A DNA stretch of 50,759 bases from Spirochaetaceae bacterium (GTDB lineage Bacteria > Spirochaetota > Spirochaetia > Treponematales > Rectinemataceae): contig JANXYO010000102.1 of NCBI GenBank assembly GCA_025356015.1, positions 1-50,759 of the forward strand, written 5' to 3'. The notes under the pieces are model-generated. The model did not search any database. It worked only from the letters and a program-made list of their open reading frames with translations, and was not told where the DNA came from. The position numbers were made by a program, and so were the translations under genes. Positions 28,458-46,199 of this stretch are shown here, in pieces (the stretch's first letter is position 1; each line of letters begins with the position of its first letter).

Positions 28458-28749
28458 GGATCCTCCTTGTGGCCGCGGTTGGCTGCATAGAAACAGCCCA
28501 CGGGCTCGCACTGTCCATTGGTGGCCTCGCTGTTGTGGCTTTCAGGGAACGGCCTTCCAATTCCCCCGGCATGTGGTATGAGCTCAAATATAGGCCTAAG
28601 GATGGGCCGTCGATGATCATATTTGTGGCGGGAAATCGGGGCAGGAGCGGTGCACAGCCGTTTCTGCATGACGCAGAAGACTCCAGCGCCCTGCGCCAGC
28701 TAAGGGCGCTGCTCCGTGGTGTGCCTTTATCTTCTCCGCTACTTTCTTC
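28458..28749. other. Intergenic region upstream of the chemoreceptor and downstream of phoR
   Basis: About 290 bases hold no convincing gene. They contain the ribosome site of the chemoreceptor gene and the hairpin at 28684-28711. I see no clear sigma-70 or flagellar-type promoter, though an AT-richer patch near 28,570-28,630 could carry one. Confidence 0.4.
28684..28711 (-). terminator. Hairpin downstream of the pst-pho operon
   Basis: Perfect 9-base arms CAGCGCCCT (28684-28692) and AGGGCGCTG (28703-28711) with a 10-base loop lie about 40 bases after the phoR stop. The U-tract on the minus strand is poor (GAGTCTTCT), so termination efficiency is uncertain. Confidence 0.45.
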
Positions 28750-30626: not shown

Positions 30627-31322
30627 CTAGTCCTTGAGCCGGTAACCGACCCCGCGGACCGTCTCGATGCAGTCGCAGTCCTCGCCGAGCTTTCGCCTGA
30701 GCGAGAGTATCTGCACGTCGACCGCCCGGTCCGTGACGGGGTAGTCCCTGCCCTTCACAGCGTCAATGATCTGGCTGCGTGAGAAGACCCAGCCCGGGTT
30801 GCGCAGGAGGAACTCGAGAATGGCGAACTCGGTGGCCGAGAGCTCGACCTTCCGCTCGCCGATCCTCAGCTCGTGCCTTCCTGAGTCGAGCCTCAAGCTC
30901 CCACTCGAGATGACGGACTCCGCGCGAGCGGACTGGGCCGGGAGCTCGACCGTCCTTCGCAGGGCCGCCCTGATCCTCGCCACGAGGACCTTGGGGCTAT
31001 AGGGCTTGACCACGTAGTCCTCGGCCCCGAGCTCGAGGCCAAGGACCACGTCGGCCTCCTCGCCCTTTGCCGTCGTCATGATGACGGGTAGGCGTTTGGT
31101 GCCGGTGAGGCCCTTGATGCGGCGCAGGACCTCGAGGCCGTCGATGCCCGGGAGCATGATGTCGAGGACGACGCAGTCGGGATTGGCGCCGGGGAAGCGC
31201 TCGAGGCCCTCCTCGCCGTCGCTCGCCTGGACGATGGTCCAGCCCTCCTTGCCCAGGGCGTGGCCGAGGAGCTCCCTGATGTCGGGGTCGTCCTCGATGA
31301 CGAGGATAGTGGCCTTTGCCAT
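30627..31322 (-). CDS. phoB: Phosphate-regulon response regulator (OmpR/PhoB type)
   Basis: The 231-residue product has a receiver domain (VIEDDPDIRELLG, phospho-acceptor Asp in DCVVLDIMLPGIDG, Thr in IMTTAKGEE, Lys in EDYVVKPYSPK). A C-terminal winged helix follows, with LSATEFAILEFLLRNPGWVFSR and DRAVDVQILSLRRKLG. Phosphorylated PhoB binds tandem 11-bp direct repeats, and seven such arrays are visible to the right in this window. Its ATG overlaps the phoU stop (TAATG). Confidence 0.94.
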   Translation of the reverse strand: MAKATILVIEDDPDIRELLGHALGKEGWTIVQASDGEEGLERFPGANPDCVVLDIMLPGIDGLEVLRRIKGLTGTKRLPVIMTTAKGEEADVVLGLELGAEDYVVKPYSPKVLVARIRAALRRTVELPAQSARAESVISSGSLRLDSGRHELRIGERKVELSATEFAILEFLLRNPGWVFSRSQIIDAVKGRDYPVTDRAVDVQILSLRRKLGEDCDCIETVRGVGYRLKD

Positions 31323-31981
31323 TAGTCGTTGAGCTCCACGTGCTTCCCCTCGACCATGAAGACCACGGCCTCGCAGATGTTGGTCATGTGGTCGCCCAGG
31401 CGCTCGAGGAAGCCCGAGGTCGTGAGGAGCTTGACCGCGCGCTCGATCTGTTCTGGCCTGTCCTTCATGAGCTCGAGGACCTCCTTCACGAGGGCCTTGT
31501 GCTCGTGGTCGATGCTTTCGTCGAGGGCGGCGATCCGCCTCGCCTCTTCGGCGTCGTGGTTGAGGTAGGCAGCCACGGCCCCCCTGATCATCGTGCAGCC
31601 GGTCTGGGCCATGCGCTCGAGGGCCTCGAACTGCCGGAAAGGGGGCTCTCCCGTGAAGCGCTTGACGGCCTTGGCGAGGTGGACGGCGTGGTCGCCCGCG
31701 CGCTCGAGGTTGTCGGTGACCTTGAGGACTGTGACGAGCTCGCGGAGGTCGCGGGCGACGGGTTGCTGGGTTGCTATGAGGATGGCGGCCTGGTCGTCGA
31801 TCTTGAGCTGGAGGGCGTTGACCAGCTCGTCATCGGCCTTGACCTCGGCGGCGAGCTCGAGGTTCTGGGTCTTCATGGCCTCCATGGCCTTCCGGAGGTC
31901 CTCCTCGACCCTCGCTCCCATGGAGAGGACGTCGTGGTTGAGCCTCGCGAGCTCCTCTATGAAATGCATCCTTGTCTGCAT
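31322..31981 (-). CDS. phoU: Phosphate signalling protein PhoU
   Basis: PhoU links the Pst transporter to PhoR and keeps the regulon off when phosphate is plentiful. The 219-residue product shows the two three-helix PhoU repeats, with metal-binding signatures KVTDNLERAGDHAVHLA in repeat 1 and TTSGFLERLGDHMTNICEA in repeat 2. The length is normal. It is co-transcribed between the small phosphatase-like gene and phoB. Confidence 0.95.
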   Translation of the reverse strand: MQTRMHFIEELARLNHDVLSMGARVEEDLRKAMEAMKTQNLELAAEVKADDELVNALQLKIDDQAAILIATQQPVARDLRELVTVLKVTDNLERAGDHAVHLAKAVKRFTGEPPFRQFEALERMAQTGCTMIRGAVAAYLNHDAEEARRIAALDESIDHEHKALVKEVLELMKDRPEQIERAVKLLTTSGFLERLGDHMTNICEAVVFMVEGKHVELND

Positions 31982-32231: not shown

Positions 32232-32989
<758 letters not shown>

Positions 32990-32993
<4 letters not shown>

Positions 32994-34603
32994 CGTGTCT
33001 TCGCTCCCTTTTCGCGGCCGCCGCCCATCTTGCCTATGAGGCGTTTCGCGGAGAAGTTGAAGGCGACCACCACCAGGATGAGGACGGTCGCGGTCGAGAA
33101 GGCCCTGTCGAAGGAGATACCCTCGGCGAAGAGCAGGTAGATATGGGAGGAGAGGACCCGGGCCGAGGAGAAGAGACCCTTGGCGAGCTTGTAGTCCGAA
33201 CCCATGGTGAAGAGGAGGGCGGCCGTCTCCCCGACAGCCCTGCCGATACCCAGTATGAGCCCCGTGAGGATGCCGGGGGCGGCGGCCGGGATCGCCACCC
33301 TCACGATGGTCTGGAGCTTGGTCGCCCCAAGGGCGAGGGAGCCCTCGCGCAGGCCAGCCGGGACGGCCTTCATGGCCTCCTCCGAGGTCCGCACTATCGT
33401 GGGCAGGATCATGAGGGTGAGGGTGAGACAGCCCGAGAGGAGGCCGAAGCCGAAGTGGAGGATGTTGACGAAGAAGAGGAAGCCGAAGAGGCCGAAGATT
33501 ATCGAGGGTATGCCCGCCAGGGTCTCGGTGCCGAGGCGGAGTATCCTGATCATGATGCCCTGTCTCGCGTATTCGACGAGGTAGACGGCAGCGGCGACCC
33601 CGATGGGCGCGGCCATGAGACCGGTGAGGATGAGCATGAGGAAGGTGTTGGCGATGATCGTGGAGATGCCGCCCACCTTGCCCGAGAGGCCGGGGCTCTC
33701 GAGGAGGTAGCTCAAAGAAAGGTTCCAGCCGGACTCTGTGCCGCTCCACATGAGGGTGGGCAGCTCCTCGGCCTTTGCGTCTCCGGCGAAGAGATAGCCG
33801 ACGCTGCCGCTCTGGTCCCCGAGGGCCGCGAGGTAGGCGGCCATGTCCTTCTCCCTCGCTCCCCCCGACACCGAGTGCCCGCCATCGGAGAGGACCCGCT
33901 GGAGCTCCGTCCCCGCGGGGGGCTCGAGGAGGTGGACGGCGAGGTCGGGGCCGCCGAGCTCCTTCCAGTTCGCTATCTTTCCCGCCATGAGGAGACGCAA
34001 GGCAGGGTCGCTCAAGTCCTCGATCCCGCGGTTCTCGACGAGGGCTGTGACCTCGCTGTTGGCGGCGATGACGACGCGTCTCAAGGGGATGACCTTCACG
34101 CCCTTCTGCCCGGCCAGGTCCTCGGCGGGGAGGACGGCGACGGCGCCGAGGGTCGAGCGCACCCGCTCGATCGCTCGGGCCGCGTCGGGGGCCGTCTCCA
34201 CAAGGCCGCCCCACTGCGGAGTGCTTCCAAAGAGGAAGCGCGATACCTTCGCGCCATCGGCCGTCGAGCTGTCGAGTGCGATGGGGACGAGGTCCTCCTT
34301 GTCGGCTGTGATCTTTGACCAGTTGAGGTACTCGTCGGTATACATGCCGTAGAGGACGGGGAACTCGATCCTGTCCAGTGGTGTTCCCTCGTTGACAACG
34401 ATGGCGAGACCATCGGGAGCGGCCTCGGAGTTCGAGAGGACGGTCGATCTGACTACGTTCTCGTAGCGAAGGCCGCGGTAGACGATGAAGATGAGGATCA
34501 GGGCGAGGATGCCAATGGTGAGGAAGGAGAGACCGCGCACGATGGCGAATGCGATGGCCTGGCTGCGCAGTCGCGATGCGTGGCCGCTTGTCGGCTTATG
34601 CAC
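32990..34603 (-). CDS. pstA: Phosphate permease PstA with an inserted PstS-like periplasmic segment
   Basis: The start is GTG 34603, overlapping pstC by eight bases. Residue ~24-44 is the first membrane segment ([20 protein letters not shown]). From ~311 on, the normal PstA permease follows with its EAA-type loop [20 protein letters not shown] and [16 protein letters not shown]. Between them lies an extra ~250-residue stretch (34456-33706). It holds two segments resembling PstS lobes: one with [20 protein letters not shown], the other with [19 protein letters not shown], the latter close to ISNWKDVGGPDLKIVVVN in this operon's PstS. The 537-residue length is nearly twice normal. The permease role is sure; the insert's function is inferred. 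Confidence 0.92.
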
Positions 34604-35516
34604 CGCCGCCCCCTTCCGTCGCCGCCATCGAGCGCTTCAGGGCGACCTGGACGGTGAGGTTGAGGACGAGGATGAAGACGAAGAGGACGATGCCCGTGGC
34701 GAAAAGGCTGGTGAGGTGGTCGCCGGTCGCGTAGCTCATGTCGGTGATGATGTTCATCGTCAGGGTCCTGACCATGCCCGTGAGGCCCTTGGGCATGAGT
34801 GGGGCGTTCCCGCCCACCATGAGGACGGCCATGGTCTCTCCTATCGCGCGGCCCATGCCCAGGATGACCCCGGCGATGATGCCCGAGCGGGCAGCGGGCA
34901 CGAGGACGCGCACGATGGTCTGCCAGTGGGTGGCCCCGAGGGCCAGGGAGCCTTCCTTGAGCTCGCGCGGCACGGCGCGCAGGGAGACCTCGGTGACGCT
35001 GATGATGGTGGGCAATGTCATGATGGCGAGGACTATCGAGGCCGAGAGGACGGAGTAGCCCGAGCCGCCGAAGAGGCTCCGCGTAATAGTCGATATCAGG
35101 GCTATGCCGAAGAGGCCGTAGATCACCGAGGGGATCCCGGCGAGGAGCTCGACGGTGGAGTGGATGATGCGCGATGAGCGTTTCTCGGCGAGCTCGGCGA
35201 GGAAGATCCCGACGGCCAGGCCGATGGGCACCGCGAAGGCGAGGGCGAGGCCGGTGACGTAGAAGGAGCCCACGATGAAGGAGAGGATCCCGTAGCCCGG
35301 GACCTTGGCCGTCGGCTCCCAGCGGGTGGAGCCCAGGAACTCGAGGACGCTCACCTTCTGGAAAAGGGACAGGCCGCGCTGGAAAAGGAAGACCGTTATC
35401 AGGATGACGGCCAGGACGGAGAGGGCGGCGCAGGCGAAGAGCAGTCCCTCGGCCGTCCTCTCGAAAAGTTTCCGATGCTTCACTCTATCATCCAGGTTCC
35501 GGGCATGTGGATGCAT
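34596..35516 (-). CDS. pstC: Phosphate permease PstC
   Basis: PstC forms the membrane channel with PstA. The 306-residue product has about six hydrophobic segments and the conserved [20 protein letters not shown] loop that contacts PstB, plus ILGMGRAIGETMAVLMVGG. ATG 35516 (MHPHARNLDD) is chosen; its ribosome site is weak, and GTG 11 codons later (VKHRKLFERTA) is an alternative. The open frame further upstream runs through the inverted repeat after pstS and is not likely coding. Confidence 0.93.
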   Translation of the reverse strand: MHPHARNLDDRVKHRKLFERTAEGLLFACAALSVLAVILITVFLFQRGLSLFQKVSVLEFLGSTRWEPTAKVPGYGILSFIVGSFYVTGLALAFAVPIGLAVGIFLAELAEKRSSRIIHSTVELLAGIPSVIYGLFGIALISTITRSLFGGSGYSVLSASIVLAIMTLPTIISVTEVSLRAVPRELKEGSLALGATHWQTIVRVLVPAARSGIIAGVILGMGRAIGETMAVLMVGGNAPLMPKGLTGMVRTLTMNIITDMSYATGDHLTSLFATGIVLFVFILVLNLTVQVALKRSMAATEGGGGA

Positions 35517-35538
35517 CCTTTTTCGATGAACAGAATCA

Positions 35539-35602
35539 AACCGCAGAGACGCGGAGCCGCAGAGAGAGGAAGAAGAAGTCGAGGCTCTGCGCCTCTGCGG
35601 TT
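35539..35602. repeat. Imperfect inverted repeat between pstS and pstC
   Basis: Arms AACCGCAGAGACGCGGAGCC (35539-35558) and GGCTCTGCGCCTCTGCGGTT (35583-35602) pair at 18 of 20 positions around a purine-rich 24-base loop. The hairpin would form in the transcript just after the pstS stop and before pstC. Binding-protein genes often carry such a structure to stabilise the upstream message and lower expression of the permease genes. The CGCAGAG-rich arms also resemble a palindromic repeat family I recall from intergenic regions of many environmental bacteria. Confidence 0.8.
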
Positions 35603-35612
35603 CCATTTCCTT

Positions 35613-36440
35613 TTACTTCTTCGGCACCGGGATGTAGTCGACCGACTTCACGATCGCCTGGCCCTTGGGGGAGAGGACGAAGTCGATGAAGGCCTTCTCG
35701 ACGGAAGCCGCCGCGGGCGCGCCCTTGGTGAGAAGGAAGAGGGAGCGCGAGATGGGATACTTCTTGGCGATGACGTTGGCGACTGTCGGGGCGACAGCGT
35801 CGACCTGGAGCTCGCGGCCGCCGGCCTTGATGACCTGGTCGGCGAAGGCCATGCCCACGTAGCCGATGGAGCCGGGGGTCGAGGCGACCTTCGCGGCTAC
35901 CTCGCCGTTCTCCTTGGTCACAATGGCGTCCTTTGTGTAGGCGACTGCCTTGCCGAAGTCCTTCAGGCAGACGAGCTCCCAGAAAGCGGCGTATGTGCCC
36001 GAAGATTCGTCGCGGTTGACGACGACGATCTTGAGGTCGGGGCCGCCCACGTCCTTCCAGTTCGAGATGTCACCGTGGTAGATCTTGGCGAGGTTGGCGC
36101 GGGAGATGTTGGCAAGCTTGATGTTCTTGTTCACAACCACGCTGAGGCCGTCGAGGGCGATCACCACGGGCTTCCCGTCCATGAGCTGGTCGGCGGAGAA
36201 CTCGGCCGAGGAGCCGGCGAGGCTGATCTGGCCGGCGAGGAGGGCCTTGAGCCCCGCGCCAGAGCCCGTGGCCTCGTAGGAGATCTTGACGCCCGGGTTG
36301 TTCTTCTGGAACTGCTCGATGGCGGCATAGGCGATCGGCGCGACCGTGGTCGAGCCGCCGAAGGTGAAGGTTCCCGAGAGCTGCGCGAAGGCCGAGCCGG
36401 CGAGGGCTAAGACCAGGGCAAGGGCCGTGAGCTTCTTCAT
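35613..36440 (-). CDS. pstS: Periplasmic phosphate-binding protein
   Basis: The 275-residue product starts MKKLTALALVLALAGSAFAQ (signal peptide), from ATG 36440 with GGAGG six bases upstream. Phosphate-pocket motifs are present: FTFGGSTTVAPIA, ATGSGAGLKALLAG, SGEI-type GDISNWKDVGGPDLKIVVVN, RDESSGTYAAFW and STPGSIGYVG. It captures phosphate for PstCAB. It heads the pst-pho operon behind a four-unit Pho box. Confidence 0.96.
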   Translation of the reverse strand: MKKLTALALVLALAGSAFAQLSGTFTFGGSTTVAPIAYAAIEQFQKNNPGVKISYEATGSGAGLKALLAGQISLAGSSAEFSADQLMDGKPVVIALDGLSVVVNKNIKLANISRANLAKIYHGDISNWKDVGGPDLKIVVVNRDESSGTYAAFWELVCLKDFGKAVAYTKDAIVTKENGEVAAKVASTPGSIGYVGMAFADQVIKAGGRELQVDAVAPTVANVIAKKYPISRSLFLLTKGAPAAASVEKAFIDFVLSPKGQAIVKSVDYIPVPKK

Positions 36441-36500
36441 GAAGTTCCTCCGTAGGGAGTCTGCGATGTGGCTCACCTGAGCCTGCGGAGACCTTACGCG

Positions 36501-36544
36501 AGTTTAGTCAGGGAACGGCGAGAGCCATGTTAGAAAACGGTTAA
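36501..36544 (-). promoter_or_regulatory. Pho box (four 11-bp units) and promoter of pstS
   Basis: Read on the minus strand, four contiguous 11-mers occur: TTAACCGTTTT, CTAACATGGCT, CTCGCCGTTCC and CTGACTAAACT. TAAGGT follows four bases later (36496-36491) as a possible -10. The first unit contains the stop codon of the upstream metallophosphoesterase-like gene. The spacing and position match PhoB sites; the base composition of the unit is this genome's own variant. Confidence 0.75.
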
Positions 36545-37623
36545 TGCGGCGTTTCGGTCTCGGTGGTCGGCCGGGCGGGAAGGCCGAGGCGCTGGCGCAG
36601 CGAATCGAGCTCGACCTCGCGGAGCACATGGCGCCTCACCCCGCAGCCCTCCAGGGTCTCGACGCGGAGGGAACGGGCAGCGAGGCTGCGGTGGGGCCGC
36701 CTGTCGTCGGTCCAGCGGATCTGGCGCAGCGCTCCGCCCTCGATCTCGATCAGGTTGAGACCCGATCGGCGGACGGCCCTCCCCGCGTTGAAAAGGCAGG
36801 GCGCGAGGCTTCCCTCCTCGCCTGTCGCGAGGCTCGGGGCCATGTCCCTGGACCCGCCATGGAAACGGGCGTTCTTCTCCTCCTGGAGGCGGAGCAGGGC
36901 CTCGAGCACCCCGGCGTCGCTGCCCTCCCTCCCCGCTTCGCCCGCGAGGATGGAATCCATCGAGGCGCGCAGCTCGTCCCGCCGCGTCCGGCTCTCGAAG
37001 AGCGTCCTGCCCGTGTGGCCGAAGATCGTCGCGATGCCAAGTTCGCGCGACGCGCGGTAGAGCCTCAGCTCGGCGTTGTGGAGCCGCCGGGGATCCTTGA
37101 GGTCCTCGGCGTCCCGAATGCGTCGAGGCTTGTCGATGTACGAGTTGACGAAATCCCGGTAGTCCCTCCCCGCGAAGAAGCGGCAGGCCTGGTGGCCGTG
37201 CAGGACAAAGAGCTCGAACTCGCGCCACAAGAGCCTGAGCCCGTGGATGTGGCGGTAGCGGGGGCGGGCCTTGCGCACCAGGCCGAGGTCCCGTTCGCCG
37301 AGCAGCCTTCGCAGCGAGCCCTGGGCGGCGAACTCATCGAGGAGGGCAAAGATCCGCCTCCAGGCCTCGGCGATATCCTTCGACCAGAACGAGCGCAGGT
37401 TTTCGGCATCCCCGTTGAGGACGAGGGTGTAGCCCTCAGGCAGATAGGCAGCCCCGAGGACTGCCTCAACAAGGTCGCGCCGCGGAGCCGCCCTGTCGTG
37501 GTTCCGGCCGTCGCCCAAACCGAGGTCCGAGACGATGACATAGCGGGAGCAAGGGGACAGTCTCTCCTGCGGGCTCCTGTCATGCAGGCCGCGGAAGGAC
37601 TCGAAAAAGGCTCTGTATCTCAT
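36541..37623 (-). CDS. Metallophosphoesterase paralogue with lost metal ligands (probable pseudoenzyme)
   Basis: The 360-residue product aligns along its length with the intact metallophosphoesterase encoded at 38644-39741. Each metal motif is changed: SDFHMGDG becomes SDLGLGDG, DGDVEDL becomes NGDAENL, GNHD becomes GERD, and GHTHRP becomes GHTGRT. HGHQACRFF is kept. The frame is long and open and the fold core looks preserved, so it is not a recent pseudogene. It could bind a ligand or partner rather than hydrolyse phosphoesters. ATG 37623 has AGGGGCG upstream. It follows the PHP gene by 53 bases and precedes pstS. Confidence 0.75.
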   Translation of the reverse strand: MRYRAFFESFRGLHDRSPQERLSPCSRYVIVSDLGLGDGRNHDRAAPRRDLVEAVLGAAYLPEGYTLVLNGDAENLRSFWSKDIAEAWRRIFALLDEFAAQGSLRRLLGERDLGLVRKARPRYRHIHGLRLLWREFELFVLHGHQACRFFAGRDYRDFVNSYIDKPRRIRDAEDLKDPRRLHNAELRLYRASRELGIATIFGHTGRTLFESRTRRDELRASMDSILAGEAGREGSDAGVLEALLRLQEEKNARFHGGSRDMAPSLATGEEGSLAPCLFNAGRAVRRSGLNLIEIEGGALRQIRWTDDRRPHRSLAARSLRVETLEGCGVRRHVLREVELDSLRQRLGLPARPTTETETPH

Positions 37624-37676
37624 GGTTTCGCCCCTGCCTGGGTCGGGCCGCAGGCGTCCCGTCGAATGCCGCGGTT

Positions 37677-38567
37677 CTAGGCCGCGGGCCTGAGTCCAGG
37701 CTTACCGCGTCCGCGTTTGGCGAGGGCCTCGCTCCGCCAGCCTTCGGACCCTAGGACCATGACCCGCTCGTAGCCAAGGCCGGAGAGGATGGCCGCCGCC
37801 TCGCCGAAGGCGAAATCGAGGTCGGCGCTGCGGTGGGAGTCCGAATTGATGGTCGTCGGGATCCCGAGCTCCAGGGCCCTGCCCAGCAGCCGGGGGCTCG
37901 GATAGGGCTCGTCGATGTAGCCACGGGCCATGCCTCCCGTGTTGAGTTCAAGGATCGAGCCCGAGGCGGCCACGGCCCTGAGGGCCGCGTCCGCGAGCTC
38001 GCGGTACCAGGCCTCGCCCTCGTCGAAATATAGGGACCCGCTGTTGTATTTCCGCACGAGGTCGAAATGGCCGATGATGTCGGGGCGCTCGAGTCTGGCC
38101 ATGTCGGCCACGGACGCGAAATAGGCGGCGACGAGGGCGCGGATGTCGCCCCCGAACTGCTCCTCGAGGCCCAGGGCGAAGCTCGCGGGGCTGTCGTCCA
38201 TCTGCCAGGGAAGGCCGACTTCGGTCCGACCCACGAAATGCACCGAGCCGATGCGGTAGTCGAAGCCCGAGAAGGCCGGATCCGAGGGGCCGATGAGATC
38301 GGGTATGTAGTCGACCTCGAGGCCAGTCCAGACCGAGATCCTTCCGCGGTAGAGACGCCTGAGCGAGTCGATCTCGGTCCTGTAGCGCTCGAGGGTCGAG
38401 GGCCAGCGGCCCAGCCCGATGCACCAGGTCGAGGGGAAGGGCAGGGGGGCGTGGGAGGAGAAGCCCAGGGCCGACATGTCCCGGTCCAGGGCGGCCTCGA
38501 CATACGCGAGGGGCCGCTCGGCGCCGTCGCAGAAATCGCAGTGGCAGTGATAGTTCGTCCAGCTCAT
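37677..38567 (-). CDS. PHP-family phosphatase (histidinol-phosphatase-like)
   Basis: The PHP superfamily uses a trinuclear metal centre to cleave phosphomonoesters. The 296-residue product starts with NYHCHCDFCDGA (HxH ligands), then FSSHAPLPFP, TGLEVDYIPD, RIGSVHFVG, RPDIIGHFDLVRKYN, SILELNTGGMARG and TTINSDSHRSADL, matching HisK/HisJ-type histidinol-phosphate phosphatases. ATG 38567 has AAGGAGG upstream. With no his genes nearby and a Pho-box array in front, scavenging of phosphate from phosphoesters is as likely as histidine synthesis. Confidence 0.85.
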   Translation of the reverse strand: MSWTNYHCHCDFCDGAERPLAYVEAALDRDMSALGFSSHAPLPFPSTWCIGLGRWPSTLERYRTEIDSLRRLYRGRISVWTGLEVDYIPDLIGPSDPAFSGFDYRIGSVHFVGRTEVGLPWQMDDSPASFALGLEEQFGGDIRALVAAYFASVADMARLERPDIIGHFDLVRKYNSGSLYFDEGEAWYRELADAALRAVAASGSILELNTGGMARGYIDEPYPSPRLLGRALELGIPTTINSDSHRSADLDFAFGEAAAILSGLGYERVMVLGSEGWRSEALAKRGRGKPGLRPAA

Positions 38568-38592
38568 CGTCTTCCTCCTTCCCGTAGGCAGA

Positions 38593-38636
38593 AAGATGGT
38601 CGGTCTTTCGTGAGAATCCCGTGAGGCTGGCGATAG
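38593..38636 (-). promoter_or_regulatory. Pho-box-like array upstream of the PHP phosphatase gene
   Basis: The minus strand reads as four contiguous 11-mers: CTATCGCCAGC, CTCACGGGATT, CTCACGAAAGA and CCGACCATCTT. The middle two match each other at CTCACG. The array ends 25 bases before the ATG, so it is promoter-proximal; no good -10 is visible. Confidence 0.65.
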
Positions 38637-38643
38637 ATTCGGG

Positions 38644-39741
38644 CTAATTCGGCCTTGTCTGGGGCCAGAGACCTGAGGCCCTGTCGCCGAGGAGCTCGAT
38701 CCTGGCGAAGACCTGGTCGAGGTAGTCCTGGCGGAGGAGGTAGCGCGAATAGGGGCTTCCATCGAGCGTCGTCGAGCCCAGGGCCTCGCGCCGTATGTAC
38801 TCGCGCGCCGAACCCTCGCCGGCCCAGTGGACGAGGCCGATGGCTCCGCCCTCGATCTCGAGGGCGGTGACCCCGTGCCTCCCCGTGGCGCAGCCGGAGT
38901 TGAACATGCAGGGGATGAGGAGGCCGCGCTCCTCGTAGAGGCTCCTCGAGAGAGCATATTTCATGTCCCGGTCCTCGAGCCGCTCGAGCTCGATCCGGTA
39001 GATGCCGACGAGCTCGGCGATCTTCCGGCGGCGCTCAGGCTCGGCGAGGGAGTACTCGCGCAGCTGCTCCTCGATCGCCCATCGCAGGCTGTCGTACTTC
39101 GTGAGCGACTCGAACAGGGGCCGGTGGGTGTGGCCGGAGATCGACACGATCCCGAGGCGCTTCGAGGCCCGGTAGATCCGGCGCTCCTGCTTGAACTTGT
39201 GCCGCGAGTCGCCCGATATGCTCGTGTTGCGGATCCTCAGGGGCTTGGCCAGGTAGCGGACCACGAAGTCCGAGATGTAGTCGCGTTTCACGAAGAAGCG
39301 CGAGGCCTGGTGGCCATGGAACACGAAGATGCGCCTTCCGCGGCGTTCGAGCACGAGGCCGTGGAGGAGCTCGAAGGGGTAGTCGGGCTCTGTGAGGAGG
39401 CCGAGGTCGTGGTTGCCGACGATCTTCCTCAGCCGACCCTCCCTCGCGAAGGCATGAAAGATGTCATAGAGCTCGCTCCAGGCCGAGCGGATCTCCGGCA
39501 TGCGGAACTTGCTCAGGTCCTCGACGTCCCCGTCGAGGACGAGGGTGTAGCCGCGCTCGAAGTACCAGCGCGCGAGGATAGTCAGCACGAGGTCGCGGTT
39601 CCATTCGAGGTCGTCGCGCCTGCCCCCGTCACCCATGTGGAAGTCGCTGAAGAAGACGTAGCGAGGGGCGTCGTCGAGGCGCTCGGTCGGGCAGGCGGCG
39701 ATGAGCTCCTCGAAGGAGCTCAGGAAATCCGCGAATTTCAT
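38644..39741 (-). CDS. Calcineurin-like metallophosphoesterase
   Basis: The 365-residue product carries the full set of metal-binding motifs: SDFHMGDG (DxH), DGDVEDL (GDxxD), GNHDLGLL, FHGHQASRFF and SGHTHRPLFES. It belongs to the large cytosolic phosphoesterase superfamily; the substrate is unknown. A conserved C-terminal region (MFNSGCATGRHGVTALEIEG) is shared with its ligand-less paralogue at 36541-37623. ATG 39741 has GGAGG five bases upstream. It lies after the STAS-ATPase pair on the same strand, with a GC-rich hairpin between. Confidence 0.87.
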   Translation of the reverse strand: MKFADFLSSFEELIAACPTERLDDAPRYVFFSDFHMGDGGRRDDLEWNRDLVLTILARWYFERGYTLVLDGDVEDLSKFRMPEIRSAWSELYDIFHAFAREGRLRKIVGNHDLGLLTEPDYPFELLHGLVLERRGRRIFVFHGHQASRFFVKRDYISDFVVRYLAKPLRIRNTSISGDSRHKFKQERRIYRASKRLGIVSISGHTHRPLFESLTKYDSLRWAIEEQLREYSLAEPERRRKIAELVGIYRIELERLEDRDMKYALSRSLYEERGLLIPCMFNSGCATGRHGVTALEIEGGAIGLVHWAGEGSAREYIRREALGSTTLDGSPYSRYLLRQDYLDQVFARIELLGDRASGLWPQTRPN

Positions 39742-39760
39742 CGAACCTCCCGGGGGATGT

Positions 39761-39799
39761 CCCCCCACAGGGGCGATTCTCGCTTCCCCGCGTGGGGGG
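39761..39799 (-). other. GC-rich hairpin before the metallophosphoesterase gene
   Basis: Arms CCCCCCAC (39761-39768) and GTGGGGGG (39792-39799) enclose a loop with a second CCCC/GGGG pairing. It sits in the 84-base gap between the ATPase stop and the metallophosphoesterase ribosome site. It could be an attenuator or processing site; there is no U-tract. Confidence 0.4.
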
Positions 39800-39825
39800 G
39801 CGGTTAGGATTCCATGAGCATTATG

Positions 39826-40359
39826 TCAATCGGATCCCCCGGAGAACCAGCGGACCACGCCGACCTTCCGGCGCGAGGCGTCGTAGATCATGCCGCCGTT
39901 CCAGTACTCCAATGCGGCCACGAGGCTGTTCCCCCCGTCCTCGGCGTCGCTCCGGGGGCCGCGGTAGCTGGCCAGGTCCAGGAATGCGTCGAAGTCCTCC
40001 TCGAAGAGGGCGGTCTGCCGCCGGCGGTAGAAATCGTTCCACGCCTCAAGCTCGGAGAATCCCTCCCCCTCGTCCTCGACGATGAAGCGGGCGCGCTTGC
40101 GCAGGTCGTACCAGACCCTGAGCCTCTTCGCGCTGTCGCAGCGATTCCCGTGCTTGACCCCATTCTTGATGATCTCGGAGAGCTGCTGCTCGAGGAGATT
40201 CCCCTCGCGGAAAGCGGGCGGGCAGTCGGCAAGGACAGCGAGGGTGTAGTCGCGTATCTTGGAGAAGATGCTCGGAAACTCGATATGGCGCATGCCCTGG
40301 GCGTCGAAGAGCTCGTTCCTGTCGTCGACGATGAGCTTCCGGACGATGAGGGTCTTCAC
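39826..40359 (-). CDS. HATPase-type serine kinase / anti-sigma-like protein (RsbW-like)
   Basis: The 177-residue product has the GHKL ATPase boxes: N-box LSEIIKNGVKHGNR, G1 VEDEGEGFSE, and a G2-like GGNSLVAALEYWNGGMIYD. This is the architecture of partner-switching kinases (RsbW/SpoIIAB) that phosphorylate a STAS antagonist and hold a target protein inactive. An insert of about 30 residues separates G1 and G2. Its ATG overlaps the STAS gene stop (ATGA), the classic pairing. No sigma factor gene is nearby, so the target is unknown. Confidence 0.85.
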   Translation of the reverse strand: MKTLIVRKLIVDDRNELFDAQGMRHIEFPSIFSKIRDYTLAVLADCPPAFREGNLLEQQLSEIIKNGVKHGNRCDSAKRLRVWYDLRKRARFIVEDEGEGFSELEAWNDFYRRRQTALFEEDFDAFLDLASYRGPRSDAEDGGNSLVAALEYWNGGMIYDASRRKVGVVRWFSGGSD

Positions 40360-40706
40360 CTGGTCCCCCGCGCGGTAACGGCCTCGCCGGGACCCGGAGC
40401 CCCCATCCTCATCAGGGGGAGGATGCTGGTCATCGCGAGGACCCGACGCGGGCCCCCGCCGAGGCCCACGAAGCTGAGCTCACCGCCCAGGCGCTTCGCC
40501 GCCTGGAGGATGCCGATGATCGCGCCCACCCCCGTGCTGTCCAGGTAGCGGAGCTCCGACATTTCGAACACCAGACGCCTAACCCCCGACTCCATCTTAC
40601 CCAGCACCGCCGCCTTGAACCGCGGCGCGTTGTAGAGGTCGCAGTCGCCCGCCATGCGCACGACGATGCGCGACCCCGACTCATGCTCGCTGAATGACCA
40701 TTCCAT
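40356..40706 (-). CDS. STAS-domain anti-sigma-factor antagonist (RsbV/SpoIIAA-like)
   Basis: The 116-residue product is a single STAS domain with the phosphorylatable serine in RYLDSTGVGAIIGILQAA. In partner switching the unphosphorylated form binds and neutralises the ATPase-type kinase. ATG 40706 has GGAGG five bases upstream. It is the first gene of a minus-strand operon with the kinase, behind a Pho-box-like array that faces the divergent phosphatase gene. Confidence 0.9.
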   Translation of the reverse strand: MEWSFSEHESGSRIVVRMAGDCDLYNAPRFKAAVLGKMESGVRRLVFEMSELRYLDSTGVGAIIGILQAAKRLGGELSFVGLGGGPRRVLAMTSILPLMRMGAPGPGEAVTARGTR

Positions 40707-40742
40707 GTTTTCCTCCTCGGCGTCGGCCCAAGATCTGGGGTC

Positions 40743-40786
40743 AGGACCGTCAGGTTTCCGTGAGGACGGCGCTAGAAACCGGCTAA
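40743..40786 (-). promoter_or_regulatory. Pho-box-like array upstream of the STAS-ATPase operon
   Basis: The minus strand reads TTAGCCGGTTT, CTAGCGCCGTC, CTCACGGAAAC and CTGACGGTCCT, four contiguous 11-mers with the CTnAC/TTAGC start. The array ends 36 bases before the STAS ATG. A second array for the divergent phosphatase gene starts 10 bases to the right. Confidence 0.65.
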
Positions 40787-40796
40787 TAGCGCCGGC

Positions 40797-40839
40797 CAAA
40801 CGCTGGCCTAACCATCGCCTAACCGAAGGGGCGGAGAAT
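40797..40839 (+). promoter_or_regulatory. Pho-box-like array and -10 of the SpoIIE-type phosphatase gene
   Basis: The plus strand reads CAAACGCTGGC, CTAACCATCGC and CTAACCGAAGG as contiguous 11-mers (40797-40829). Four bases later comes GAGAAT (40834-40839), a four-of-six match to the -10 consensus, with the same geometry as at pstS. GGAGG at 40852 and the ATG at 40861 follow. Confidence 0.72.
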
Positions 40840-40860
40840 GCGCTCAATTACGGAGGGCGG

Positions 40861-42069
40861 ATGAAAGAGAAGCTTCTGAGGGAGGTCGAGGCGGGCAGGC
40901 TCTACAGCTCGTCGGCCCTGCGCGCCGCGCGCCATTTCTGGACCGTGGCCGAGGGCGCGAAGGCGAGCGAGCTGGCGGACGAGCTTCAGGAGGCGGTGGA
41001 CATCGTCGTTGTGGCCGTGCTCGACGCCTCGGGCGGACCCCTCGGTGTGATCCCGAGGGAGCGGCTTTTCGCCCTCCTCTCCAAGCCCTTCGGCCGCGAG
41101 ATCCTGGGGCGCACAAACGTGGGCGAGCTGGCCCAGCCGGCTCCCTGCTTCGACGCGCACGCGGGCATCTTCGCGGTCGCCGCCGAAGCCCTTGGAGCCG
41201 ACAGCGAACTCAGGATTCCCTTCCTCATCCTGGTCGACGGCGGGGGTGGCTTCAAGGGTGTGCTCTCATCCCGGGACCTCGCCGCCTATCTCTCCCGCAT
41301 GACCCAGGACGACATCGAGCTCGCCGGCAGGCTCCAGGAAAGGCTCCAGGACGGTAACGAAGAGCTGGGCGGCGGGGCCCTGAGCTTCGAGGCATGGTCC
41401 CGGGCGGCCAAAGGCGTGGGCGGCGACTTTTGCTTCACCAAGCGGCTCGAGGGTGGGCGGTCCTTCCTCGCGTTGTGCGACGTTTCCGGGAAAGGCGTGG
41501 CGGCCTCGCTTGTCGTGGCCATGGTCTGGGGCATGCTCAGGATGCATGACTACGGCCGGGACCTCGTCCACCTCGTCGGCAGGCTCAACCAGGCCGTCGT
41601 CGAGACCTTCCATCTCGAGAAGTACCTCACCGGATTCTTCGCCGTCTTCGACCCCTCCAGCGGGGAGCTCCGGGTCGCGGACATGGGCCACGGCCACGGC
41701 CTCCTCCTGCGCGCTGGCCGGGTCTACGCCCTGCGCGGCGGGAAGAGCAACCTTCCAGTGGGCGTGGAGACCGAGGTCGAGGTCCAGGTGGAGCGCTGGC
41801 GCCTCGTTCCCGGCGACCGGCTCTTCGTGTTCAGCGACGGCCTCACCGAGCAGGAGGACGCGGGCGGCAGCGAGTTCGGCGAGGCCCGCCTCGTCGCGGC
41901 CCTGAAGCGCCGGCTGGGCGGGGAAGGACCCATCGGGGCCCGGCTCGCGGCCGCGCTCGACGCCTACCGCGGCGGGATTCCCCAGCAGGACGACATGTCC
42001 TTCATGCTCCTGTCCTACCGCGGCCTTGGTCACCGGGCCCGCGACGCCGAGGGCAAGGAAGGGAATTAA
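40861..42069 (+). CDS. CBS-domain SpoIIE/PP2C-type serine phosphatase (RsbU-like)
   Basis: The 402-residue product has an N-terminal CBS pair (about 25-165; GVIPRERLFALLSKPFGREI, LILVDGGGGFKGVLSSRDLA). A short helix (MTQDDIELAGRLQERLQ) leads to a PP2C domain with metal-binding motifs AAKGVGGDFCF, LCDVSGKGVAASL, VADMGHGHGLLL, FSDGLTEQED and QQDDMSFMLL. RsbU-type phosphatases dephosphorylate STAS antagonists and release the target of the kinase, so this completes a partner switch with the divergent STAS-ATPase pair. The CBS pair may sense an adenine nucleotide. The long in-frame extension upstream crosses the promoter and is not coding. Confidence 0.9.
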   Translation: MKEKLLREVEAGRLYSSSALRAARHFWTVAEGAKASELADELQEAVDIVVVAVLDASGGPLGVIPRERLFALLSKPFGREILGRTNVGELAQPAPCFDAHAGIFAVAAEALGADSELRIPFLILVDGGGGFKGVLSSRDLAAYLSRMTQDDIELAGRLQERLQDGNEELGGGALSFEAWSRAAKGVGGDFCFTKRLEGGRSFLALCDVSGKGVAASLVVAMVWGMLRMHDYGRDLVHLVGRLNQAVVETFHLEKYLTGFFAVFDPSSGELRVADMGHGHGLLLRAGRVYALRGGKSNLPVGVETEVEVQVERWRLVPGDRLFVFSDGLTEQEDAGGSEFGEARLVAALKRRLGGEGPIGARLAAALDAYRGGIPQQDDMSFMLLSYRGLGHRARDAEGKEGN

Positions 42070-42110
42070 CCGATTTCTAATCCTTCCCCGGCCAGCCCCG
42101 GCGCGATACT
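42066..42110 (+). promoter_or_regulatory. Pho-box-like repeats and promoter of the histone-like gene
   Basis: TTAACCGATTT (42066-42076) and CTAATCCTTCC (42077-42087) are contiguous 11-mers; the first differs from the pstS unit TTAACCGTTTT at one base. A weak third unit and GATACT (42105-42110, four of six to -10) follow. The first unit starts three bases from the preceding stop. Confidence 0.65.
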
Positions 42111-42155
42111 GGAAATCAAATCACCCGCGGCGCGCGGGAAAGCAGTGAGGTCCCC

Positions 42156-42539
42156 ATGTCCAAGACAGTGCGCGAAAACATCGACAAGGCCACAAGGCTC
42201 ATCTCCAGACGCGAGGCTGATCTCGAGGAAACGGTCCTAGCCGAGCTCAATGCGGCCCTCGGCGCCGTGAAGGCCCAGCTCGAGGAGCGCAAGGCCCTCA
42301 AAAGCGTCCTGCGGGAGTCGGCCAAGCTCCTCGAGGCCAGCGCGAAGGACCTGGGCAAGGTAGTGCGGAAGGTCAAGAAGGCGGCCGAGGCGTCGGCCAA
42401 GGCCAGGAAAGCCTCGGCGCTGGCGGAGAAGGCGCGCGCCAAAAGCCGCGCCCCTGCCAAGGCGGCGCCCCCGAAGGGCGGAGCAACCAGGCCAGCCGCC
42501 AGGCCTCCTTCCCCGGCCAAGAGCGAGGCCCAGACCTAG
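42156..42539 (+). CDS. Histone-H1-like basic protein
   Basis: The 127-residue product has a helical, charged N-terminal half (ENIDKATRLISRREADLEET). A Lys/Ala/Pro-rich tail follows (KVVRKVKKAAEASAKARK, PAKAAPPKGG), composed like bacterial H1/Hc1-type proteins, which bind and compact DNA. GAGG lies five bases before the ATG. The tail resembles that of the MarR-type regulator at 7723-8439. The Pho-box-like repeats suggest it is made under phosphate starvation; that is an inference. Confidence 0.75.
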   Translation: MSKTVRENIDKATRLISRREADLEETVLAELNAALGAVKAQLEERKALKSVLRESAKLLEASAKDLGKVVRKVKKAAEASAKARKASALAEKARAKSRAPAKAAPPKGGATRPAARPPSPAKSEAQT

Positions 42540-42664
42540 TCGGCTGGCCGCGATGAGCGAGGGGGTGAATATGGGCGTGGCGACCTTAAGGCTCGCCTGG
42601 CCCGTCCCTCCCTCGTCCCGGTCTTCTTGCTCATGCCGAGGCGGGAAGCCCGCCTCCTCATCCC

Positions 42665-42828
42665 TTTCCCGGCGTGAGAACACCCTCATGGCCCACCTGT
42701 CCGCGGAGAGCTTGGCCTCCTTCTTGAGTTCGGCCAAGACCTCAGATAGCCCCTCTGCGTCGAGCTCGGCCCCGGCCTCGAGGACCACGACGGCCACGCT
42801 CACCGTCAGCAGGGGCATGCGGCGTTCC
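42665..42828 (-). pseudogene. Detached C-terminal remnant of a GGDEF domain
   Basis: Out of frame with the EAL-CBS gene, this stretch reads RMPLLTVSVAVVVLEAGAEL, then GLSEVLAELKKEAKLSADRW. It resembles the last strands and helix of the GGDEF domain found in EAL-CBS-GGDEF proteins. The middle of that domain, including the GG(D/E)EF active loop, is absent, so a deletion joined the two ends out of frame near 42,820-42,835. The rest of the 42,540-42,805 gap shows no other gene. Confidence 0.65.
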
Positions 42829-44197
42829 CGGCCCGGTCGCCGTTGCGGAAGCCATAGCGGTCGTTGAAGGGCTTGAAATTGTCGAAGTCTAAATAGGCGA
42901 AGGCCACGCCCCGGCCGGGATCGGCGAGGCGGAGGGCGCAGACCTCGGCGACGCGGAGGTTGCCCGGAAGCCTCGTGAGCGGATTCTGGTCGCGGGCCTC
43001 GGCGAGTTCGCGCTCCGCCACCAGGCCGAGCAGTTGCTCGGCGGGCAGGAGCCCGGCGTAGCGCCCTCCCTCGGTGAACACCACCCCGCCGCCGTCGGTT
43101 TGGTCGCCGTAGAGCTCGACGATGCGCGCGAGCTCGGTGCCGAGGGGGGCGCTCGGGGCGCGGACGAGGAAGGCCGTGGGGCCGAACTCGGTCGCCATGT
43201 GCTCGAGGAGGGAGATGCCGTAGGGCGAGTAGACATAGCGCCGGAAGTCGCGCTCGCGGTAGATTCCCACGGGTTCGCCCTCCTCGTCGACCACTGGTAT
43301 CATGGAGGCTTCGGGGTCCTTCCTGAAGCGGGCCAGCACCGAGGCGATGTCGGAGCCGAGGGCGACCGGCTCGGTCCGCAGGATGCATTCCTCGCCGATC
43401 CTGCCCGACTGGGATTGGGCCCGGCGGTCCTCGCCGCCCGCAGCCGCCTCGGGATATTGCAGCGACAGGCTCGCGGTGTCGAGGCTGGGCCGGGCGATGT
43501 AGAAGCCCTGGACCATGTCGCAGCCCGCGCGGGCGCAGAGCCTGAGCTCCTGCTCGGTCTCGACCCCCTCGGCCACGACGCTGATCCCCATGAGATGGGC
43601 CATGCCCGCCACCTTCTCGAGGAAGGCGGCCTTGCGCGGGTCGTCGGCGGCACCGCTCACGAAATAGCGGTCGACCTTCACGATGTCGGGTTCGGCGCGG
43701 TGGAGTAGCTTGAGGCCGGCGTAACCCGAGCCGAAGCCGTCGAGCGCAATGCGGAAGCCCTGATTCCTGTACGCCGAGATGACCCGGTCGAAGCCCGTCC
43801 GGCTGTCGGGTTCGTGGAGCTCCGAGAGTTCGAACACGATCCGCGAGGGTCTGAGGCCCACGGCTTCGGCTATCCTCAGCGTGTTGCCCGTGGCGTAGTC
43901 GGGCATCTGGAGCAGGCGGTTGTCCATATTATAGAAGATCTTGGCCTTGCCGAGCCCGGCCCTGGCGAAGGCGCCGAAGGCCTTGGCCCTAAGCTCAAGG
44001 TCGAGGGCGTAGAGGACACCCTCGGCGTAGGCGCGGTCGAAGACCTCGGTGATGCTGCCGAAGCCTGCCTCGTCCCAGCCGCGAAGGAGGGCTTCGAAGC
44101 CGTAGGTTGTCCCATTCGCGAAGAGGGCGATGGGCTGGAACGCGAACTGCAGGCGGGTGAGGGCGGTGCTCCATTCTGGCGACAGGACTGTGTTCAT
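42806..44197 (-). CDS. EAL-CBS protein with a truncated GGDEF domain (cyclic-di-GMP phosphodiesterase-like)
   Basis: EAL domains hydrolyse cyclic di-GMP. Here residues ~15-245 carry GFEALLRGW, FYNMDN, IVFELSE, PDIVKVDR, VVAEGVETEQEL and MVQGFYIARP. The DDFG metal motif reads LDGFGSG: the second Asp is Gly (GAC GGC, near 43,740), so activity may be weak or lost. A CBS pair follows (~275-400), then NPLTRLPGN and LDFDNFKPFNDRYGFRNGD, the first ~50 residues of a GGDEF domain. It then runs out of frame into AGNAACPC and a TGA. It is probably a sensor or binding protein now. It is transcribed divergently from the chemoreceptor. Confidence 0.82.
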   Translation of the reverse strand: MNTVLSPEWSTALTRLQFAFQPIALFANGTTYGFEALLRGWDEAGFGSITEVFDRAYAEGVLYALDLELRAKAFGAFARAGLGKAKIFYNMDNRLLQMPDYATGNTLRIAEAVGLRPSRIVFELSELHEPDSRTGFDRVISAYRNQGFRIALDGFGSGYAGLKLLHRAEPDIVKVDRYFVSGAADDPRKAAFLEKVAGMAHLMGISVVAEGVETEQELRLCARAGCDMVQGFYIARPSLDTASLSLQYPEAAAGGEDRRAQSQSGRIGEECILRTEPVALGSDIASVLARFRKDPEASMIPVVDEEGEPVGIYRERDFRRYVYSPYGISLLEHMATEFGPTAFLVRAPSAPLGTELARIVELYGDQTDGGGVVFTEGGRYAGLLPAEQLLGLVAERELAEARDQNPLTRLPGNLRVAEVCALRLADPGRGVAFAYLDFDNFKPFNDRYGFRNGDRAGNAACPC

Positions 44198-44214
44198 TCT
44201 TTCCCTCCGGCACG

Positions 44215-44257
44215 ATGATAGCCACCCAGCTCCAGCACTCCGTGAAGATGGTGTTAA
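44215..44257 (-). promoter_or_regulatory. Pho-box-like repeats and promoter of the EAL-CBS gene
   Basis: The minus strand reads TTAACACCATC, TTCACGGAGTG and CTGGAGCTGGG as contiguous 11-mers (44257-44225). After a four-base gap comes TATCAT (44220-44215), five of six to the -10 consensus. The gap equals that at pstS. Confidence 0.65.
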
Positions 44258-44290
44258 TTGCCGATAAATGCCCGGGACCGGGCCCGCGAT

Positions 44291-44323
44291 CTCACTGAAA
44301 GCTAACCGAAGACTAACGAAAGC
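44291..44323 (+). promoter_or_regulatory. Pho-box-like array upstream of the chemoreceptor gene
   Basis: Three contiguous 11-mers, CTCACTGAAAG, CTAACCGAAGA and CTAACGAAAGC, lie 50 bases before the chemoreceptor ATG. The second differs from CTAACCGAAGG at the phosphatase gene in one base. No good -10 is seen downstream. Confidence 0.7.
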
Positions 44324-44372
44324 GCTTGGGGAGGGCGGCCACTATGGGCGCGCCAAAAGAGGTGGTACCTCG

Positions 44373-46199
44373 ATGCGGAAAACCCGTCTCTCCCTTCTCT
44401 CCCGGATGATGATCTTCACTGTCGGCAGCGTCCTCCTCACTGGCGGGCTGGCCATCTTCCTGGCCCTGAGCGGCCTCGGCTCGCTTTCCAGCGGGATTGT
44501 CGAGGCTGTCTACGGCAGGATCCTCGACGCCGCCTCCAAGTCCTTCGCCGCCGCCGCGGCGGTGAACTACGGCGAGTTCGCCCTCTCAGGCGGCCATCTG
44601 GTCGGCGATGGCGGTGCTCCCGTGCAGAATAGCTCCCAGGCCGTGGACGCCATGGCGCGGCAATCCACCGTCGAGGCTGCCATCCTGGTCTCGTCCGGGA
44701 AGGGTTTCGAGATCGAGCAGACGAGCGTCAGGGCAGGCGACGGCAAGCGCCTGCGGGGCCTCGGGCTGGAGCCCGGCTCCCCCGCGACCGCTGCGCTCGC
44801 CGCGGGCTCCGAATACCGCGGCCGGATCTCCCTCGACGGTCGGCCCTACATCGCGGCCGCGAGCCCCATCCTCGACCAGGGCGGCTCGGTCATCGGAGCC
44901 CTCCTCGTGGGGCAGTCGGTCATCGAGGTCGACGAGCTCACGGCCGACGGCTACCGCTCCGTCCTCCTGCGGATCCTCCTCGGCTGCCTCGCCTCGGTGG
45001 CCCTGAGCGCGCTCGCGGCGGGATTCGCCCTGCGCTCATCCATAATGCCGCTGCGGCGGACCGTCAGCCTCCTGGAGAAGATCTCGGCCGACGGGGGCGA
45101 CCTGACCCGGAGGATCGAGGCGAGGCGAAGCGATGAGACGGGTCAGCTCGCGGCCTCCTTCAACCGCTTCGCCGAGAGGCTGCGGGCGGAGTTCTCCCGG
45201 ATGAAGCTCGAGGTCGCGAGCCTCGGCGGGAACGCCGGCGAGCTCGAGGCGAGTTCGGTCGCCGCCGCGGCCGCGGTCGCGAGGATATCGGGCGAGATCG
45301 GCAAGGTGAAGGACAGGGTGGTCGACCAGAGCGCGAGCGTGTCGGAGTCGACGGGCGCCATGGAGCAGGTGGCGAGGACTATCGAGGCCCTCGACCGGAG
45401 GATCGCGGAGGAGGCCGGAGCCATCGAGGGCTCCTCGGGCTCGATCGCCAGAATGGCCTCGGGGATCGAGACGGCGACCCACCGCGTCTCGGCCCTCGTG
45501 GAGAGGGTCGGGCGGCTCAAGCAGGCCTCCGACGACGGGGGCGAGGCGGTGAGGACCGCAGCCCTCGAGGTGGCCGAGGCGGCGAACAAGTCGGAGCGGC
45601 TCCTCGAGCTCAACGGCCTCATCGCCGCGGTGGCCTCAAGGACCGACCTCCTCGCGATGAACGCCGCCATCGAAGCGGCCCACGCGGGCCAGGCGGGCCG
45701 GGGCTTCGCCGTCGTCGCCGACGAGATGAGGAGGCTCGCCGAGGAGACCGCGGCGAGCTCCAAGCAGGCGGCTGAAGAGCTTCGCGACGTCGCCACGTCG
45801 ATCGGCAGGATCGTGGAGTCCTCTGGCCGGGCCGAGGCGGCCTTCGAGCGCATCGGGGAATCTGTGGCCCTCACCGCCCTGGACCTGGCCTCCATCGACC
45901 TCGAGATGACGGGGCAGAGGGCGGGGTCGGCCGAGGTCCTGCGCTCGATGGACGCGATGCGCGAAGCCACCAGGGCCATTATCCAGGGCGGGGCCGAGAT
46001 GCGCGAGGGCGGGGGCGAGGCGATCGCCGAGATGCAGCGCCTGCTCTCGCTCTCGGGCGCCATAGAGGTGAGCGTCTCGGCGATGGCCGCCGAGCTCGCG
46101 GCGATCTCCAACCAGACCGAGATGGCGGCCCAGGCCGCGAGGAGGAACGCCGAGGTGGCCGCCGCCCTCGGCGAGGAGCTCGAGCCCTACAGGACATGA
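44373..46199 (+). CDS. Methyl-accepting chemotaxis protein
   Basis: The 608-residue receptor has membrane segments at ~12-34 ([20 protein letters not shown]) and ~190-215 ([19 protein letters not shown]). Between them is a Cache-type sensor ([35 protein letters not shown]). A HAMP ([27 protein letters not shown]) and the signalling domain with tip [19 protein letters not shown] follow. ATG 44373 is behind GAGGTGG. It signals to CheA/CheW. The Pho-box array suggests it is made during phosphate limitation and might steer cells towards a phosphate source; the ligand is not known. Confidence 0.92.

Follow-up and report, generated by a model that had tools for sequence, protein, structure and literature searches.

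In Escherichia coli, the Pho box consists of at least two directly repeated 11-nt units, to which PhoB binds head to tail (PMC4415409). The box replaces the −35 element, and 10 bp separate it from the −10 hexamer downstream (PMC1906773). The SphR box of cyanobacteria, CTTAACCT, is described as 8 bp plus a 3-bp linker (PMC1906773), i.e. it has a period of 11 bp, and at least three repeats have been reported. The PhoP box of Streptomyces coelicolor (GTTCACC) is also made of 11-nt units, in variable number (PMC4415409). In Pseudomonas aeruginosa, Pho control is reported to be tied to an anti-sigma system through PhoB, the anti-sigma factor VreR and the sigma factor VreI (PMC4971064).

The stretch of DNA analyzed here (the window; 50,759 nucleotides) is contig C14 within the 4.17-Mb genome of a Spirochaetaceae bacterium, assembled in 150 contigs. 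Tandem 11-bp repeats in this window are most probably Pho boxes (we put the probability at roughly nine in ten), i.e. PhoB-activated promoters of the pst-pho operon and of phosphatase, EAL, chemoreceptor and partner-switching genes. As in E. coli, direct repeats of 11 nt would be bound head to tail and would take the place of a −35 element, with a core of CTGTCAT in E. coli versus YTAAC or YTCAC here. The TTAAC core of the cyanobacterial box is almost identical to our units 1 and 2, and the TTCAC core of the Streptomyces box recurs in units 3 and 4. Unit number varies here as it does in S. coelicolor, and the four units found here compare with the three or more of cyanobacteria; the targets differ from those of both groups, as do the operator classes from those of S. 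coelicolor. Unlike the E. coli Pho regulon, the set of targets includes a partner-switching module, and no alkaline phosphatase of family PF00245 was found in the genome. In the original prediction the consensus seemed to be specific to this lineage. This did not stand, as YTNAC-N6 resembles both the Streptomyces GTTCACC and the cyanobacterial CTTAACCT (PMC4415409, PMC1906773), and the identical array layout occurs at pstS in a Dethiobacter (Firmicutes) MAG.

The Pho regulon as such is a known kind of system. A search of the open literature, with subscription journals mostly outside its reach, turned up neither a description of Pho boxes or of a Pho regulon in spirochaetes nor any report linking PhoB to an anti-sigma-type switch and a cyclic-di-GMP enzyme in these bacteria. 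New are the description of a Pho regulon in these spirochaetes and a partner-switching module that, judged from its promoters, is apparently under phosphate control.

Gene content and tandem arrays of the window

The pstS-pstC-pstA-pstB-phoU-phoB-phoR operon runs from 36440 to 28750 on the minus strand. It comprises pstS (35613–36440; TIGR02136 above cut-off), the permease gene pstC (34596–35606; PF00528), a putative pstA (32990–34603, from the list of open reading frames and assigned by its position in the operon), pstB (32232–32975, the ATPase part of an open reading frame at 32232–34214), phoU (31322–31981; PF01895, with TIGR02135 above cut-off), phoB (30627–31322) and a gene for a phoR/pnpS-like sensor kinase (28750–30621; HAMP-PAS-HisKA-HATPase). 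The predicted presence of phoB in the window was thus borne out: its product is an OmpR/PhoB-family response regulator with Response_reg and Trans_reg_C domains, whose best curated NCBIfam model is PhoB (TIGR02154), although the 225.9 bits remain under the cut-off of 296.2. At 26600–28511 on the minus strand, a chemoreceptor gene appears to be divided into two overlapping frames, a dCache half (27759–28511) and a HAMP-MCP half (26600–27931), which is possibly due to a frameshift.

Upstream of the pst-pho operon, phosphatase, signalling and motility genes occupy 36.5–46.2 kb. A PHP-domain phosphatase of the HisJ family (37677–38567, minus strand) was assigned by domain and family models. The metallophosphatase at 38644–39741 (minus) is classed as calcineurin-like from the SDLH/NGD-type motifs of its homologue in the relative G010; it matched no Pfam or NCBIfam model. 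A paralogue of the latter gene (36541–37623, minus; 39% identity) begins 54 bp past the PHP gene and probably shares its transcript; no array was found upstream of it. These are followed by genes for a SpoIIAB/RsbW-like HATPase (39826–40359, minus; PF02518/PF13581), a STAS anti-anti-sigma-like protein (40356–40706, minus; PF01740, with TIGR00377 above cut-off), a PP2C-type CBS-SpoIIE phosphatase (40861–42069, plus; PF07228, 1.2e-35), an EAL-CBS protein (42806–44197, minus) and a Cache-domain chemoreceptor (44373–46199, plus; domain scan). A domain scan and comparison with a homologue showed the GGDEF domain of the EAL-CBS protein to be truncated. Over the full EAL-CBS-GGDEF reading (42541–44197, minus), the GGDEF core is gone: residues 457–523 of the G010 homologue are unmatched and the frame changes. 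The cyclase activity has either been lost recently, or the assembly is in error at this point.

Tandem 11-bp units were present at seven promoters, namely those of pstS, the PHP gene, the metallophosphatase gene, the STAS-HATPase operon and the CBS-SpoIIE, EAL and chemoreceptor genes. All but the last follow a common plan of four abutting 11-bp units, a gap of 4 bp and a −10 or −10-like hexamer. The pstS array (36501–36544, minus) reads TTAACCGTTTT CTAACATGGCT CTCGCCGTTCC CTGACTAAACT CGCG TAAGGT, its −10 being located at 36491–36496, and the metallophosphatase array (39786–39829, minus) reads TTGACATAATG CTCATGGAATC CTAACCGCCCC CCCACGCGGGG AAGC GAGAAT, with the hexamer at 39776–39781. The remaining arrays of this plan are those of the PHP gene (38604–38647, minus; CCATCT at 38594–38599), the STAS-HATPase operon (40743–40786, minus; CCAGAT at 40733–40738), CBS-SpoIIE (40786–40829, plus; units 3 and 4 strongest; GAGAAT at 40834–40839) and EAL-CBS (44225–44268, minus; unit 4 weak; TATCAT at 44215–44220). 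At the chemoreceptor gene (44291–44334, plus), three good units are followed by a fourth that is degenerate and, at +5, by a −10-like CACTAT (xAxxxT).

The 11-mers quoted in the original prediction were all present at the named genes, and they abut exactly. A hexamer four bases on, claimed for pstS, the phosphatase and EAL, was confirmed there and extends to the STAS, SpoIIE and metallophosphatase promoters. Six of the seven listed targets were retained and the metallophosphatase array, which had been missed, was added. The seventh, a histone-like gene, is unproven as a Pho target. Its doubtful site (42066–42087, plus) overlaps the SpoIIE stop codon and consists of two Pho-like units with neither a third or fourth unit nor a −10 at +4, and no orthologue of the gene was found in 58 related genomes.

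Array specificity, spacing and conservation

For a comparison with chance, each site was dropped in turn from the matrix, and the rest was scored on a 400-kb sample of the same genome, on both strands. No better four-unit match was found for pstS, PHP, STAS or SpoIIE, and one match was as good as the metallophosphatase site. The chemoreceptor array gave two hits for four units and none for its three units, and the EAL array 13 hits for four units and one for its best pair. The site at the histone-like gene was ordinary as a four-unit array, yet its pair was unequalled in the sample. Within the window, the array sites reached four-unit scores of 16.6–30.5 (each site being included in training) versus 11.2 for the best match elsewhere. 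A genome-wide pattern search with the four-unit consensus and at most one mismatch returned four matches, three of them inside the window. Both the consensus search and the leave-one-out results therefore agree with the expectation that strong arrays are not spread through the genome. A second matrix of 54 bp was built from 65 sites of relatives, leaving out the genome itself; its ranks 1–6 in the 50.7-kb window are six of the array sites, with a score of 43.3 for pstS and rank 2 for EAL.

Two further properties were evident among the relatives' sites. The matrix score at a period of 11 was far above those at periods of 7–10 and 12–16, and the xAxxxT of the −10 stood at exactly +4 in 68 of 80 sites. 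Since the −10 is absent from the matrix, its position counts as independent evidence.

Conservation was assessed with a matrix derived from the window units only, run on the DNA upstream of orthologues and compared in each case with dinucleotide shuffles (400 for pstS, i.e. a floor of p = 0.0025). An array was detected at 23 of 24 pstS loci of relatives (p < 0.01, all at 0.0025), spanning GC contents of 33–71% and PstS identities of 40–80%; the single locus devoid of an array (L092) is also devoid of a linked phoB or pstB. A second PstS family with about 30% identity (same bacterial family, L039–L059) had the array at 18 of 23 loci, giving 41 of 47 for both sets. As the array is kept with quite different PstS proteins, the operator seems to outlive gene replacement. 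In most of 26 loci, phoB belongs to the pst locus; it is either part of the operon or a neighbor of pstS, from which the array separates it. The named relatives identified by way of pstS are uncultured Spirochaetota. An extra array was noted downstream of pstS, ahead of the pstC-side genes, in the relatives G012 (L073:2487) and G011 (L075:12110).

Beyond pstS, the units are conserved upstream of the metallophosphatase (18 of 30 orthologues, with none in a distant group of 38–42% identity), CBS-SpoIIE (12 of 19, p < 0.01) and EAL (6 of 7) genes, in accordance with the expected conservation in relatives. For PHP, 2 of 17 genes had an array, namely the one in the window and the syntenic in-cluster gene of G011; the 15 PHP genes outside the cluster had none and provide a built-in negative control. 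Arrays were also found at alkaline phosphatase genes of the relatives G010, G011 and G024, that of G011 being weak. Taken as sequence elements, the arrays look like real PhoB docking sites, retained in many uncultured spirochaetes that together form a large group.

It is extremely improbable that the repeats match a loose motif by chance or merely reflect features common to promoters in general. The unit is indeed degenerate, with about five informative positions per 11, and at two mismatches the four-unit consensus was no commoner genome-wide than the reversed control pattern. Against this stand the leave-one-out results over 400 kb, the sharp period of 11, the fixed −10 spacing and the conservation over GC contents of 33–71%; conservation, period and −10 spacing already exclude chance for pstS, SpoIIE/STAS and the metallophosphatase.

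A narrower reading would restrict Pho boxes to pstS, the phosphatase and the partner-switching genes and regard the EAL and chemoreceptor arrays as decaying or fortuitous. We consider it unlikely. The four-unit leave-one-out results are weaker for both sites (13 and two hits per 400 kb, respectively), no good orthologue of the chemoreceptor was found among the relatives, and its array is poorly conserved, with weak support in G004. However, the EAL array is present in six of seven orthologues and is ranked second among the window's sites by the relatives' matrix, and the three near-perfect contiguous units of the chemoreceptor are the sole such triplet returned by a pattern search of the genome.

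OmpR-family regulators have a common winged-helix fold and often recognize repeats of similar period. The arrays might hence be read by another member of the family, such as a KdpE- or WalR-like paralogue, with the nearness of phoB being incidental. A look-alike is indeed present in the same genome: a kdpA-like gene, named from its sequence, is preceded by the TTAAC repeats TTAACGCCGCC TTAACGGGATG (C148:4513–4528; L114), with TATCAT in matching spacing. This gene was rejected as a Pho target, and the pair is probably a KdpE site. Its score with the relatives' matrix is 2.3, compared to 43.3 for pstS. Together with the arrays at 41 of 47 pstS loci and at phoA in three relatives, and with the linkage of phoB to the pst locus, this makes a different OmpR-family reader very improbable, and PhoB is the preferred regulator. 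The identification of the tandem repeats as PhoB sites in the original prediction is thereby supported, as it is by the −10 spacing, the period and the conservation.

Sites elsewhere in the genome show that the regulon, proposed to be local, is not confined to the window. A PhnS-like ABC transporter operon (L113, 3426–7509) has a Pho-type array with TATAAT at +4 (C55:22493–22508), reading CTAACCTGATT CTAACGAATGC CTATTCTATTC CCGCCAAATGG TTCT TATAAT. With 25.3 in the relatives' matrix, it ranks third behind pstS and EAL; the match of the transporter to the PhnS model is far below cut-off. The gene divergent from this operon encodes an Fe-ADH_2 protein. A DUF5666 lipoprotein-like gene with a CTAACCGTATT CTAAC pair upstream (C144:6186–6201; L115) was rejected as a target, scoring 5.5 in the same matrix. 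The 54-bp matrix also returned a lone match of 22.5 bits at C36:32224 (L220:12224), with TAGAGT at +4; where a target gene would be expected to begin, no start is evident.

A partner-switching module with head-to-head arrays

The presence of Pho arrays at a partner-switching module in addition to phosphate uptake genes makes the set of targets as unusual as first proposed. All three parts of the RsbU-RsbV-RsbW and SpoIIE-SpoIIAA-SpoIIAB systems are represented, i.e. a SpoIIE-type phosphatase, a STAS protein with a DSTG motif (phosphorylatable Ser/Thr predicted) and a SpoIIAB-like ATPase, pointing to an RsbU/V/W-like module, each arm of which has a Pho array. Conservation is highest in the HATPase (66–81% identity), and all 12 HATPase members examined gave a weak match to Pfam HATPase_c_2. 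The structure predicted for the HATPase has a modest pLDDT of 61; in a Foldseek search its best solved matches were SpoIIAB and RsbW, with SpoIIAB on top (E = 9.7e-4). In contrast to the Rsb and SpoII systems, the phosphatase carries a CBS domain, the gene order is divergent, both sides have Pho arrays, and no sigma factor gene was found among the neighbors scanned in the window. The parallel reported from P. aeruginosa likewise ties Pho control to an anti-sigma system, there of the ECF sigma type and here a STAS/HATPase/SpoIIE partner switch (PMC4971064).

In 19 of 19 genomes examined, the STAS-HATPase pair and CBS-SpoIIE are transcribed in opposite directions, away from each other. In 17 of these, including the window, the array on the STAS side (opposite strand) scores above 10. 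In the window, the two arrays stand head to head with an overlap of one base. In eight of the 19 genomes the nominal first SpoIIE unit coincides exactly with the first STAS unit on the other strand and fits the STAS strand better; because of this common unit, the STAS and SpoIIE arrays abut without a gap.

The spacing was compared with that of the E. coli phoA promoter, given the 10 bp between box and −10 (PMC1906773). If GTCAT of the E. coli heptamer is aligned with YTNAC, the unit would lie 15 bp from the −10 in both systems (in E. coli, counted from GTCAC). With equal spacing of this kind, the geometry would be the one usual for promoters that PhoB activates and that lack a −35 element. In the proposed mechanism, phosphorylated PhoB, supplied by the window's own pstSCAB-phoU-phoB-phoR operon, would bind the arrays head to tail; four 11-bp units leave room for two dimers. 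Bound PhoB would substitute for the missing −35, and a sigma70-type RNA polymerase would start from the −10, 15 bp past the start of the last unit. Phosphate starvation would then turn on the pst-pho operon, which has the strongest site, so that PhoB should control its own supply. It would also turn on the phosphatase genes, the EAL-type cyclic-di-GMP phosphodiesterase, the chemoreceptor and both arms of the divergent partner-switching module.

With regard to the last of these, we lean towards the view that in Spirochaetota PhoB acts directly, under phosphate starvation, on a conserved anti-sigma-type partner switch through a compact head-to-head Pho operator, besides its role in phosphate supply. 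If so, a second layer of regulation, with an alternative sigma factor or a cyclic-di-GMP/motility output, would receive its transcriptional input from the Pho system. The arrays yield a position matrix usable for the whole order, with which sequenced relatives may be searched for their Pho regulons. They also bring to light a conserved partner-switching module that, from its promoter sequences, appears to be controlled by phosphate.
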